Shown here piece by piece: positions 43,587 to 47,733 of a stretch of 64,000 nucleotides of DNA (position 1 is its first letter; each line of letters begins with the position of its first letter). This DNA is from Haloterrigena alkaliphila (lineage in GTDB: Archaea > Halobacteriota > Halobacteria > Halobacteriales > Natrialbaceae): positions 868,001 through 932,000 of the forward strand of contig NZ_CP071462.1 of NCBI RefSeq assembly GCF_017352155.2. Direction: 5' to 3'. The notes under the pieces were generated by a model. The model ran no database searches. It was not told where the DNA came from and saw only the letters and a program-made list of their open reading frames with translations. The position numbers were made by a program, and so were the translations under genes.

Positions 43587-43739
43587 TCAGTCGTCGGCGG
43601 TGAGACCGTCGTCGGCCTCCGCTGCGGTCGTCGCCGCGTCGCCGTCCGCCGTGCTCGCTGTCGCCTCCGTCGCGTCGTCGTTCGATTCGTCCGATGCTGG
43701 CGGTGCCGTGTAGAGGATCCCGCGACTGCCACTGTACAT
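43587..43739 (-). CDS. Small acidic haloarchaeal protein
   Basis: A 50-residue protein: MYSGSRGILYTAPPASDESN followed by an Ala/Thr/Asp-rich acidic tail (DDATEATASTADGDAATTAA). A TATA-like TACTTATGCG lies ~25 bases before the ATG at 43739 on the minus strand, supporting a leaderless gene. The protein has no recognisable domain and should be disordered. It is divergent from the PrsW-like gene. Because its composition is low-complexity, coding is less certain than for its neighbours. Confidence 0.5.
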   Translation of the reverse strand: MYSGSRGILYTAPPASDESNDDATEATASTADGDAATTAAEADDGLTADD

Positions 43740-43860
43740 GATTGTCGGTTCTGGTCGCCGAATACGCATAAGTACGGTCCTTATACAGATCTTGAAGGTC
43801 AATATCATACTAGGACGTGCGCGCCGAACGCTTACCGGACCGGCCGTCGTACTGGCGTCC

Positions 43861-44874
43861 ATGTCGCGAAAGCGCGACCCGGTCGAAGCGGCCAGCGACG
43901 AGTCGACCGATCTCTACGACGTCTCGACGTGGGAACCCCGGTCGCGCCTCGATCGGGTCTCGAACTCGGTATACAACGTGATCCGGTACGGACTGCAGGG
44001 AATCGTGCTCCTCGTCGCGGTCGCGATTACGATCGCACTGCTGGTCCAGCCGGCGGTGCTCGTCCTCGAGGAAGGCTCGGTCGCGGTCGCCGTCTTCTTC
44101 GGCCTCTCGGTCGTTCCGGCGGCGTTGCTCGCGGCGCTCATCTGGTACTCGGACGTCACGACGCAGGAACCGCTCGGATTGCTCGTCGCGACGTTCGTTC
44201 TGGCCATTCTATTCGCGACGTTCGCGGCCGTCGTGAACTCGCTGGTCGGGCCGAGCATCCGGGCGGTTCCGGTCGTCGGATCGATCCTCTTTTTCTACCT
44301 GATCGTCGGACCCGTCGAGGAGGGCGTGAAACTGCTCGCGGTTCGCTTCTTCGCCTACCGGAGCGACGCGTTCGACGCCGTCATCGACGGCGCGGTCTAC
44401 GGCGCCGTGGCTGGACTCGGGTTCGCCGCGATCGAGAACACCATCTACATCGGGTCGACGATCGCGCAGGCCGACGTCGGCACGCTCACGGCTGCGACCG
44501 GCATCACGACCGTTCGCGCGCTCGTCGGTCCCGGCCACGTCATCTACTCCGCGATCGCGGGCTACTACCTCGGTCTCGCGAAGTTCAACCCCGGCCGCGG
44601 CGGCCCGATCGTCGTGAAGGGGCTGTTGATCGCCGCGTTCATCCACGGGACGTACAACGTCACCGTCGGAATCGTTCCCTCCGTCGTGACTGAACTCACC
44701 CCCATCCCCTTCGGGGCGGCGTTCATCGGCTACGTGGTTCTGTTCGACGCCGTGATCTTCGCCTTCCTCTACCGCAAGATCGCCCGCTACCGGCGGGTCT
44801 ACCGCGCCGTCAGGGACGACACCGGTTCGGATCCCCGATCGGAACTGACCGAGTTCGACCCGCCACAGCGCTGA
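43861..44874 (+). CDS. PrsW-family intramembrane metalloprotease-like protein
   Basis: A 337-residue membrane protein with about eight hydrophobic helices. Residues characteristic of PrsW glutamic/metallo proteases are all present: EEGVK in VGPVEEGVKLLAVRFF (~151-166), EN in FAAIENTIYIGS (~191-202), H in LVGPGHVIYSAIAGYY (~225-240) and H in AAFIHGTYNVTVG (~260-272). The family cleaves membrane proteins within the bilayer, for example anti-sigma factors in bacteria; the archaeal substrate is unknown. The N-terminal ~40 residues are charged and cytosolic. The start at 43861 is the first plausible ATG. Confidence 0.92.
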   Translation: MSRKRDPVEAASDESTDLYDVSTWEPRSRLDRVSNSVYNVIRYGLQGIVLLVAVAITIALLVQPAVLVLEEGSVAVAVFFGLSVVPAALLAALIWYSDVTTQEPLGLLVATFVLAILFATFAAVVNSLVGPSIRAVPVVGSILFFYLIVGPVEEGVKLLAVRFFAYRSDAFDAVIDGAVYGAVAGLGFAAIENTIYIGSTIAQADVGTLTAATGITTVRALVGPGHVIYSAIAGYYLGLAKFNPGRGGPIVVKGLLIAAFIHGTYNVTVGIVPSVVTELTPIPFGAAFIGYVVLFDAVIFAFLYRKIARYRRVYRAVRDDTGSDPRSELTEFDPPQR

Positions 44875-44957: not shown

Positions 44958-47126
44958 ATGAGTGCGACGTTTACGGACGACGACCTCGAGAAGCGAGTCG
45001 AGAACGCCAACGGCGAGGTGATCGGGACGGTCAGATCGATCGAGGACGACACCGCCCGCGTCGAGCCCCGCGCCGGCGTCGTGGACTCGATCAGGGCCGC
45101 CCTCGGCTGGAGAGAGGCCCACGACGACACCGTCGCAGTCCACGAGAACACCGTCGACGAGATCTCGAGCGACGTGATCCGGCTCCGAACCGAGTCCGTC
45201 GACGACCCCGCCGGCGTGCCGACGGAGACCGGGGTCACGACCACCAACGCCGCGGAGCGAAACCCCGAAACCGACGTCGACGAGTGGGACTCGAGCGGGA
45301 GTGTCGACGCGATGGACGACGCGACCGCGCGGAACGAGGCCGAGCGAGACGCGGGAACCGACGAACTCGAGGAATCCGACGCGGAGGCCGAAGTAGAGAC
45401 GAGTACACGTATCGCGGAACCGGACGAGACAGCGGACTCGAGCGCCGACGAACCGACGGAAACGAGTCTCGACGTGGAGACGGGTCCCGACGAGCCGATG
45501 GACGCACCCGACGAGGATCAGGCGGTCGACGAACCGGTCGAAACGCGCGCGTCCGACGGATCGGACGAACCCCACGCGCCGGACGAGCTGAACGACGTTC
45601 ACCGGCCCGACGCGCCGAGCGAACCCGGTCTCGAGCACACGACGGCGGTGATCGACGAGGCCGAGGAACCCGACGCATCGGACATCGAGGAGGCCGAGGA
45701 ACCCGACGCATCGGACATCGAGGAGGCCGAGGAACCCGACACCGCTGACGAGGCGGACAGTGCGTCCGCCCCCGATCTCGAGGACGAAACGCAGGCGTCC
45801 CCCGACGCGATGAGCGGAGACCGATCGACGGAGTCGGCCGAAGCGATGGATCGGGCCGGCGTCGCCGACGCGCCGATCGACGAAGCGGAGCCCGACGGGC
45901 CGGACACCGGCGCCGGCATCGGACCGACCGCGGAGACGGACCACGACGAATCGGCCGAGAGCGAATCGGCCGAAAGCGAGTCAGACGGGGGGACGACCGC
46001 GGGATCGACGTCGATCGAGGGAACCGACATCACCGAGGAACTGGATACGAGCCTCGATCTCGAGTCGGCCGCGGAGTCCACCGAATCCGACGACGCCGTC
46101 ACAGACGAGGCGACCGAGTCGGAGGATATCGCCGACGAGGTCGACACCGGCGTCGACCTCGAGTCGGCAGCGACGGACGACGACGACGAAACCAGTGACC
46201 GGCGCGAAACCGACGACGCGGATCTCGCGGACGAACTGGACACCGGCGTCGACCTCGAGTCGGTCACGGACGCGGAGACGGATTCGAGAACGGACGCTCG
46301 CCCGGAGACCGAACTGGATCCGGACGTCGAGACCCGCTCGGGTCCCGAGACCGATCCGCGACCGGAGACGACCCTCGAGACCGCGGACGACGAGTCGACG
46401 ACTGCGGAAGGGAGTCAGTCGGGCAGCGAGGTGGTTCCGGGCGTCGATATCGAGTCGGCCGTCGAACCGGATTCGGAACCCGATCCGGAGATCGACCCCG
46501 ATACGATCGCCGGGTCGGAGGCGGAGCCCGAATCGACGGATGACGGGGTCGCTCGCGAGCGACTCGAGGGTGAGGCGGACGCGGCGACGGCCGACACCGA
46601 GACCGATGCGGCCACGGTCGACAGCGAGGACGCGGATCGAACCGGCGGCGAGCGCTCGAGTTCGCCGCTCGGGGTCGCGTTCGCCACCCAGCGGGCCGCG
46701 ATGACGAGCGGTCAGGAACTGCTCAAGCAGGGGCTGACCGTCCAGCAACGGACCGCCCGCACTGCCGTCGAGGCCCCGCTGGTCGCCCAGCGGCAGGGCG
46801 TGGAGCTCGCGCAGTCGGCCACCCGGAGCTACTTCGACGCGCTCGCGGCGCTGACGGGGACGTCGAACGCCGACGCCGATTCGAGCGGCGAGATCCCCCA
46901 GTCGCCCGACGAACTGCTCGCGAAGCTCGAGGACGCCGCGGAACTGGCCGACGACGAGTTCGACCGGCAGGTCTCGGAGCACCTCGAGCGCCTTCGCGCG
47001 ATGCGCGCTCGGCTCGACGCGGACGACGAGGGCGAGGAGATGGCCGCGGCGATGCTCGAGCGACAGGTCGCGCTGCTCGAGGCGTGCCAGCAGCGACTGG
47101 GTGACTTCGGCGAAGCCGACGAGTGA
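44958..47126 (+). CDS. Modular acidic protein: PRC-barrel-like N-terminus, repeat-rich linker, helical C-terminus
   Basis: A 722-residue protein of unknown function. Residues ~1-80 (ATFTDDDLEKRVENANGEVI, then GTVRSIEDDTARVEP) resemble a PRC-barrel-type domain. Residues ~85-565 are an extremely acidic low-complexity linker with two repeat types: EEAEEPDASDI-like units (three tandem copies near 235-260) and a short motif TGVDLESA that recurs four times with variation (TSLDLESA, TGVDLESA, TGVDLESV, PGVDIESA). Residues ~570-722 form an Ala/Gln-rich helical domain (QQRTARTAVEAPLVAQRQGV, then ATRSYFDALAALTG) that looks phasin-like. Likely a scaffold; function inferred only. Confidence 0.8.
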   Translation: MSATFTDDDLEKRVENANGEVIGTVRSIEDDTARVEPRAGVVDSIRAALGWREAHDDTVAVHENTVDEISSDVIRLRTESVDDPAGVPTETGVTTTNAAERNPETDVDEWDSSGSVDAMDDATARNEAERDAGTDELEESDAEAEVETSTRIAEPDETADSSADEPTETSLDVETGPDEPMDAPDEDQAVDEPVETRASDGSDEPHAPDELNDVHRPDAPSEPGLEHTTAVIDEAEEPDASDIEEAEEPDASDIEEAEEPDTADEADSASAPDLEDETQASPDAMSGDRSTESAEAMDRAGVADAPIDEAEPDGPDTGAGIGPTAETDHDESAESESAESESDGGTTAGSTSIEGTDITEELDTSLDLESAAESTESDDAVTDEATESEDIADEVDTGVDLESAATDDDDETSDRRETDDADLADELDTGVDLESVTDAETDSRTDARPETELDPDVETRSGPETDPRPETTLETADDESTTAEGSQSGSEVVPGVDIESAVEPDSEPDPEIDPDTIAGSEAEPESTDDGVARERLEGEADAATADTETDAATVDSEDADRTGGERSSSPLGVAFATQRAAMTSGQELLKQGLTVQQRTARTAVEAPLVAQRQGVELAQSATRSYFDALAALTGTSNADADSSGEIPQSPDELLAKLEDAAELADDEFDRQVSEHLERLRAMRARLDADDEGEEMAAAMLERQVALLEACQQRLGDFGEADE

Positions 47127-47127
47127 G

Positions 47128-47733
47128 CTACGCGAAGCGCTCCTCGAGCAGCCGTTCGACGTACTTCGCGAGGACGTCGACCTCGAGGTGGACGGGATCG
47201 CCGGGTTCCTTCTCGGAGAGGGTCGTCAGTTCGTAGGTCGCAGGGATGATCGCGACGGTGACCCGGCCTTTTGTTTTCTGGAGGTCGGCCACGGTGAGGC
47301 TGATCCCGTCGAGCGTGATCGACCCCTTCTCGACGACGTAGCGGCCGTATCCTTCGGGGAGTTCGAACTCGAAGAACCAGTCCTCGTCGACGGCTTCGAT
47401 AGTCGAGACCGTCGCGACCGCGTCGACGTGTCCCTGCACGACGTGGCCGTCGAACCGGCCCTCGGCCGGCATCGCCCGCTCGAGGTTGACCGCGTCGCCC
47501 TCGGCGAGGTCTCCCAGGTAGGTCCGCTCGACCGTCTCGGTCGCGAGGAAGACCTCGAACCACGCGCCCGACTCGAAGCGTTCGACGGTGAGGCAGACGC
47601 CGCTGACGCTGATGCTCTGCCCGTGCTCGAGTCCCGTCGCGACCTCGTCGGCCCCGATGCGCAGACGGAGGCCGTCGTCGGTCCGCTCGCGGGCGACGAT
47701 CTCGCCGGTCTCCTCGACGATTCCGGTGAACAT
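47128..47733 (-). CDS. ribE: Riboflavin synthase, bacterial-type alpha subunit
   Basis: A 201-residue riboflavin synthase that dismutates 6,7-dimethyl-8-ribityllumazine to riboflavin. It has the two homologous barrels of the bacterial enzyme: the first opens MFTGIVEETGEIVA, the second has GHVVQGHVDAVATV (~94-107). Substrate-site blocks ISVSGVCLTVERFES (~41-55) and ITLDGISLTVADL (~138-150) are paired. Most archaea use an unrelated riboflavin synthase, so this bacterial-type enzyme is a haloarchaeal acquisition. It is convergent with the preceding gene, with one base between stop codons. Confidence 0.95.
   Translation of the reverse strand: MFTGIVEETGEIVARERTDDGLRLRIGADEVATGLEHGQSISVSGVCLTVERFESGAWFEVFLATETVERTYLGDLAEGDAVNLERAMPAEGRFDGHVVQGHVDAVATVSTIEAVDEDWFFEFELPEGYGRYVVEKGSITLDGISLTVADLQKTKGRVTVAIIPATYELTTLSEKEPGDPVHLEVDVLAKYVERLLEERFA

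Follow-up and report, generated by a model that had tools for sequence, protein, structure and literature searches.

What is the function of a haloarchaeal protein that carries a PRC-barrel-like domain at one end, a phasin-like domain at the other, and a long acidic linker with a repeated motif in between? Such a protein is encoded in the window, a stretch of 64,000 nucleotides from Haloterrigena alkaliphila, by an open reading frame of 722 aa with an ATG start. A first-pass annotation had read this frame as a modular protein with repeated motifs, and this is borne out: the frame is real, orthologs were found, and MSATFTDDDLEK, with small variations, is the common start of the 12 orthologs collected first. 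The gene lies outside the polyhydroxyalkanoate (PHA) operon, between genes for a PrsW-family protease and a riboflavin synthase. Its features and neighbors are as follows:

44958..47126, plus strand: whole gene, with predicted PRC-barrel, acidic linker and phasin-like domain, 722 aa
44958..45209, plus strand: PRC-barrel-like N-terminal domain, residues 1-84 (AlphaFold2 model and structural matches)
45213..46661, plus strand: acidic low-complexity linker, approximately residues 86-568 (composition)
45651..45740, plus strand: 11-aa unit EEAEEPDASDI, 2.7 tandem copies, apparently a local expansion (Tandem Repeats Finder)
46035..46073, plus strand: linker motif copy 1, EELDTSLDLESAA (score-matrix scan)
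46134..46172, plus strand: linker motif copy 2, DEVDTGVDLESAA (score-matrix scan)
46230..46268, plus strand: linker motif copy 3, DELDTGVDLESVT (score-matrix scan)
46425..46463, plus strand: linker motif copy 4, SEVVPGVDIESAV (score-matrix scan)
46662..47123, plus strand: phasin-like helical C-terminal domain, residues 569-722 (profile matches to PhaP and PhaP-like proteins; AlphaFold2 helices)
43738..44874, plus strand: upstream neighbor, PrsW-family protease (Pfam E 3.5e-42)
47128..47733, minus strand: downstream neighbor, riboflavin synthase, lumazine-binding (Pfam E 2.1e-47)

The explanation regarded here as fairly probable is that the protein is an accessory phasin of PHA granules, whose PRC-barrel and linker motifs recruit or tether partners, so that it works like PhaF and PhaM by other means.

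The two ends of the protein

Scans of the 722-aa protein with Pfam and NCBIfam return nothing above cut-off, and for the whole protein as well as for the C-terminal domain no Pfam family is matched at E ≤ 1, the bacterial phasin families included. The membrane, which had been considered as a possible location, was dropped, since the highest 19-residue hydropathy value is just 0.5.

The N-terminal domain (residues 1-84) is 49-75% identical to its aligned relatives. The Pfam PRC family (PF05239) matches weakly in 9 of 13 family members, with a best E of 0.01, which is below the cut-off, and the window member is without a match at E ≤ 1. The AlphaFold2 model, calculated with 11 sequences (mean pLDDT 75), is a small β-barrel with one helix. 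When this model is compared using Foldseek, PRC-barrels are on top, namely reaction-centre H subunits, PRC1/PRC2 of A. fulgidus, CdpB1/CdpB2, MTH1859, and RimM, with a best E of 1.1e-3. In VIA-align, A. fulgidus PRC1/PRC2 is the best match (Z 8.0, 2.0 Å, 64 residues), and further Z values are 7.9 for RimM, 7.1 for MTH1859, 7.0 for CdpB, and 5.0 for CdvA; taken alone, such values could reflect a common arrangement, yet the matches span several PRC-barrel families. The PRC-barrel-like N-terminus of the first-pass annotation is therefore upheld by the model and its structural matches, and the domain is predicted to have the PRC-barrel fold, an assignment that holds at fold level only because of the size of the best Z and Foldseek E values. 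A sequence search of the PDB with the N-domain profile gave only three weak, unrelated matches.

A single-sequence search of 61 genomes with the C-terminal domain (residues 569-722) gives matches at E ≤ 0.001 in 19 of them, comprising long relatives and shorter PhaP-like proteins; in the own genome, the protein itself is the only match. A profile of 11 ortholog C-domains, from which L040 was missed by the cutting rule and the divergent L072 was deliberately omitted, was run on all open reading frames of the fetched loci and places orthologs and PhaP-like proteins above threshold; some of the latter are identified as such by a PhaP profile. Across the whole own genome, the C-domain profile A3 identifies four proteins: the window protein, two paralogs of 281 and 337 aa, which are phasin-like and end in HHH_5, and a small protein at 104.6 kb (E 2.1e-7) that is encoded beside phaE-phaC. 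This PHA operon occupies about 103-107 kb of contig C1 and is read as MaoC (divergent), AbrB-like, PhaP, PhaE, PhaC, and FabG-like. The small protein is presumably PhaP, a label given from its position. The identities of PhaE and PhaC are supported by Pfam and NCBIfam, PhaE being above the Pfam cut-off (E 5.8e-8) yet under that of NCBIfam. The annotation of Haloferax larsenii has the matching order MaoC, AbrB-type, a small “hypothetical” protein, PhaE, and PhaC. A second class III PhaC-like gene of the own genome, with a 399-aa frame, is found at G000:C1:1916225-1917256 (L066). PHA synthase genes are thus present in the host of a protein for which PHA granules had been suggested as a site of action.

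Profile-profile comparison of the C-domain with the PhaP-position proteins yields 95.5% (E 1.5e-8), and PhaE was rejected as a relative at only 0.2%. Of the 35 long orthologs, the PhaP profile reaches 8 (E ≤ 3e-4, best 1.1e-10), and it leaves the window protein unmatched at E ≤ 1, so that the tie of the window protein to PhaP runs via its orthologs. On the strength of these profile matches, the phasin-like character first read from the letters of the C-terminus holds, and this end of the protein is judged to be related to the haloarchaeal phasin PhaP. Within the domain, the predicted helices comprise residues 2-65, 82-120, and 125-152 (mean pLDDT 72, pTM 0.28); no claim on the fold is made because structural comparison returned generic helices. 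Neither a sequence search of the PDB nor a search of a plasmid collection with the C-domain found a relative. The best plasmid match to PhaP itself, H1, has no annotated PHA gene in the flanking 4 kb on each side, unlike H4. One PhaP-like gene (L048 5957-6589, minus strand) carries an odd insert, LLYTS...SEMCIRDR, possibly an assembly fault and presumably a translated sequencing-adapter artefact.

Could Ala/Gln/Glu-rich helices resemble each other simply by chance, with the linker as neutral filler? The pTM of the C-domain and its generic structural matches are compatible with such a compositional artefact, as is one apparent chance match in the single-sequence searches, a protein of locus L077 (E 2.1e-4) that is taken to be phytoene-synthase-like. 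This match was rejected as it is missing from the list once a profile is used. Shuffled and reversed decoys are matched by neither the C-domain nor the PhaP profile, and the C-domain profile is specific at the level of the whole genome. Together with the conserved linker motif described below, these results make an artefact hardly credible.

The phasin PhaP of Haloferax mediterranei was reportedly described by Cai and colleagues in 2012. The C-domain is related to the genes in the PhaP position of phaP-phaE-phaC operons, and it is with the proteins of this position rather than with the characterized H. mediterranei protein that the comparison was made. PhaP-position proteins consist of about 150-160 aa, contain the phasin part only, and are encoded beside phaE-phaC, whereas the window protein has 722 aa with PRC-barrel and linker and is encoded elsewhere in the genome. 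The 281-aa and 337-aa paralogs share the phasin-type domain with it; in contrast to the window protein, they possess neither PRC-barrel nor motif linker and terminate in HHH_5.

The linker and its motif array

The linker of about 484 aa consists of 36% D+E, has a net charge of about -154, and is nearly free of Lys; from this composition it is expected to be disordered. By eye, its first half varies among the sequences through short local repeats. One of these is the EEAEEPDASDI unit, which Tandem Repeats Finder reports at 45651-45740 as 2.7 copies of 33 bp (11 aa) each, with 98% matches. The tandem units noticed in the first-pass annotation are therefore real, but a conserved role is not borne out, as among the sequences inspected by eye they occur in the window protein alone; they look like a local expansion.

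The other repeat proves more lasting. Four D[LI]ES[AV] motifs are confirmed at residues 367, 400, 432, and 497, and comparison with the orthologs extends the motif to approximately DELDxGxD[LIV]ES[AV], with one copy per about 35 residues. Its spacing in orthologs, chosen beforehand as a refutation test, was checked, and both number and spacing are conserved. A regular expression, which was worded after the orthologs had been inspected and overlooks the first copy (SLDLESA), counts 3 copies in the window linker compared to a mean of 0.06 in shuffled sequences, with 0 of 500 shuffles reaching 3. Twelve of the first 13 sequences exceed all 500 of their shuffles, the exception being L039 (equalled by 19 of 500). 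A score matrix built from the four copies of the window alone finds 143 matches in the 34 other long orthologs versus 25.8 in shuffled sequences. In 18 of these 34, the observed count exceeds that of all 100 shuffles; L146, L151, L152, L158, and L159 are equalled by 7 to 50 of 100 shuffles. Almost all copies found by the regular expression (80 of 83) are located in the second half of the linker, and 34 of 48 intervals measure 28-42 residues, whereas copies placed at random in this half would give 14%. At the DNA level, the pattern VD[FLIMV]ES[AV] occurs six times in the 4.27-Mb genome, three of them in this gene; two of the other sites, reading VDFES, lie in longer frames that are unrelated, and one in a 121-aa frame. 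Four other conserved linker words were looked for, and none is as widespread. In L143, near-identical copies alternate with spacings of 32 and 37 residues, suggesting duplication of a two-motif unit. The regular expression finds no copy of the motif in two compact relatives and in a single long ortholog, L158.

The architecture also has naturally occurring variants. In Salinadaptatus halalkaliphilus (L100), a 187-aa version is encoded beside PrsW, in which the PRC-barrel is directly followed by the phasin part without a linker. A further short form, G015, is a 389-aa open frame without the motif and has a terminal helix-hairpin-helix by eye. In G110 (L204), the PRC and phasin halves are in separate frames, which is due either to a broken gene or to a sequencing error, and this copy was not counted as intact. 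As the linker-less 187-aa relative keeps both ends, the core of the protein appears to consist of these ends.

The helix-hairpin-helix is a recurring ending. It is seen by eye in several long orthologs, and in the one ortholog that was scanned (L041, 5583-7751) HHH_5 matches at 1.4e-7. In the own genome, HHH_5 ends PhaC (L065 5709-7361, 2.1e-12) as well as both phasin paralogs (L102 1492-2334, 1.7e-8; L103 1489-2499, 2.3e-9). Judged from these domain matches, haloarchaeal PHA proteins share HHH_5 as a C-terminal module, and this common ending of granule proteins merits a study of its own.

These findings bear on the possibility that the protein is a hub on the granule surface, with the phasin tail on the granule, the motifs recruiting PHA enzymes or phasins, and the PRC-barrel serving only for oligomerization, without any positioning of granules. 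The conserved array with its spacing of about 35 residues fits such a role, as do the acidic stretch and terminal HHH_5 of PhaC and the HHH_5 endings of both phasin paralogs. Compact relatives, however, retain both ends without the motif, which favors the two ends as the core, and a pure hub is considered possible but doubtful.

Occurrence in PHA-producing and other genomes

The distribution was surveyed in 125 genomes of the Natrialbaceae; families beyond these were sampled only in the searches of 60 relatives. The survey set thus counts 125 genomes. Of these, 105 contain PhaC (TIGR01836) at E ≤ 0.001, and 103 do so above the curated cut-off. Scoring of up to 31 candidates per genome detects the phasin domain in 96 of the 105 PhaC genomes versus 0 of the 20 PhaC-less ones (Fisher 1.4e-16), the zero meaning that all 96 matched genomes have PhaC, with 20 of the 29 match-less genomes listed. 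This co-occurrence is partly automatic because PhaP adjoins PhaC. The intact PRC-phasin protein is present in at least 37 of the 105 PhaC genomes and in none of the 20 PhaC-less genomes. The corresponding Fisher value is 8e-4 for 37, or 4e-4 if the broken G110 copy is counted; all these values treat kindred genomes as independent, and the 20 PhaC-less genomes represent 5 genera.

The count is based on 38 inspected places: besides the window there are 12 loci collected earlier and 25 that were added to them. These comprise 35 long PRC-linker proteins, the compact form G017, and two places without a phasin part, G100 (a 124-aa frame) and L160 (a paralog). The 35 long proteins and the 2 short forms, G017 and G015, make up the at least 37 intact ones among the 125 genomes. 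Within the long set, L152 matches the C-domain profile weakly (1.2e-3), and L144 is unmatched by the 11-row profile but is matched by the PhaP profile (6.7e-6) and by profile A3. For 68 of the 105 PhaC genomes, no PRC-phasin protein was found among the matches listed; it is therefore dispensable. Judged by this distribution, PHA producers carry the gene as an accessory and not as a necessity.

The surroundings of the gene are partly conserved. When 22 loci are reduced to 16 distinct genomes, six loci being duplicate places, PrsW is found upstream in 12 of the 16, that of the linker-less form included, and riboflavin synthase downstream in 7; four have neither flank. PrsW relatives are also encoded in 18 of the 20 PhaC-less genomes. 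Of 17 stretches examined downstream of them, 14 contain the two flanking genes and neither a PRC nor a phasin part between them, one of these with a gap of 1.4 kb, and 3 do not contain both flanks. Among PhaC genomes, 20 were picked and 16 stretches examined, including that of G015, whose copy lies elsewhere; both flanks are present in 13. None of the 33 flanking stretches (17 from PhaC-less and 16 from PhaC genomes) has a PRC or phasin match.

The N-terminal domain is much more widely distributed. It occurs at E ≤ 1e-12 in at least 119 of the 125 genomes, including all 20 without PhaC, and about ten matches (at least 7 to 11) are found per same-genus genome, the window protein included. Four own-genome paralogs that were inspected consist of the N-domain and an acidic tail, with no phasin part. 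A further observation is a PRC-like paralog at L070 1521-2270 (minus strand), whose acidic tail is full of LIGDD-type repeats. This wide family leaves some room for a C-terminus that is a phasin-derived coiled coil no longer binding PHA, in a protein with a general scaffold or stress role like that of other acidic-tailed PRC-barrel proteins. The phasin domain, however, is found in 0 of the 20 PhaC-less genomes, although both flanks are present with nothing of the gene between them in 14 of the 17 stretches, and a role apart from PHA is distinctly unlikely.

Proposed tethering of granules by protein contact

Granules in Pseudomonas putida and Ralstonia eutropha are attached to the nucleoid by PhaF and PhaM, respectively (PMC5658603). 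Like these proteins, the window protein has a phasin part and a second module able to attach granules to another structure; the second module binds DNA in PhaF and PhaM, whereas it is a PRC-barrel here, and the likeness is one of described architecture. As to a DNA-binding module, and going by Pfam domains, the window protein contains none at E ≤ 1 and has almost no Lys in its linker; the one ortholog scanned, L041, has HHH_5.

The divisome of Haloferax volcanii is stabilized by CdpB1 and CdpB2, both of them PRC-barrel proteins (PMC12186497). The window protein shares the PRC-barrel fold with CdpB1/CdpB2 (PDB 8qzo, 8onw), but its N-domain profile gives no match to the A. fulgidus CdpB chains 8qzo and 8onw at E ≤ 5. 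Two other own-genome proteins match 8qzo (2.2e-18 and 3.7e-13), the matches falling on both halves of this solved A. fulgidus chain of 182 residues; the comparison covered these two of three proteins above the PRC cut-off. That the N-domain is CdpB itself was rejected, since sequence similarity is missing and separate own-genome proteins match CdpB.

In Haloferax mediterranei, staining has shown granules along with numerous DNA spots (PMC8156647). No literature joining PRC-barrels and polyhydroxyalkanoate was found in a search that is thin on subscription papers, and for PRC-barrels and phasins only an Acinetobacter methylation study on a different subject came up. Given PhaF and PhaM, CdpB1/CdpB2, and the staining of H. 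mediterranei granules, the presence of a PRC-barrel in a phasin suggests that tethering proceeds through contacts between proteins.

For the accessory phasin favored here, the following course can be envisaged. The PhaP-related C-terminal helices would lie on the granule surface, as expected from their homology, and the long acidic linker would keep the N-terminal PRC-barrel off the granule while presenting a short acidic-hydrophobic motif at regular intervals, so that docking sites recur along its length. The PRC-barrel would pair with another PRC-barrel or with another protein partner, and the granule would thereby be anchored on a cellular scaffold or brought into clusters by it. This would resemble the working of PhaF and PhaM, with a protein-docking domain replacing the DNA-binding one. 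The architecture, the homology, the conserved number and spacing of the motifs, and the confinement to PhaC genomes are observed; granule binding, the existence of a partner, and multivalency of the motifs are inferred from them. The simplest interpretation is that of a protein associated with granules, functional at both ends, whose intervening spacer is optional and bears docking motifs. The motif array, which is conserved in number and spacing within a linker that by eye is much more variable, represents a ready peptide bait (DELDTGVDLESA), and since phasin and docking domain are joined in one protein, tagging and deletion need to address one gene only.

A more far-reaching version, which must be called unlikely, is that the protein is a tether for granule segregation in Natrialbaceae, in which phasin and motif linker plug granules into a PRC-barrel network such as the CdpB divisome scaffold. 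Haloarchaea serve in bioplastic production, where the number and size of granules matter, and to our knowledge it has not been worked out how archaea position and share out their storage granules. If the segregation tether were true, granules would follow cell division, and the protein would be part of the first archaeal granule-positioning system that we know of, a non-DNA answer to the problem solved by PhaF and PhaM.
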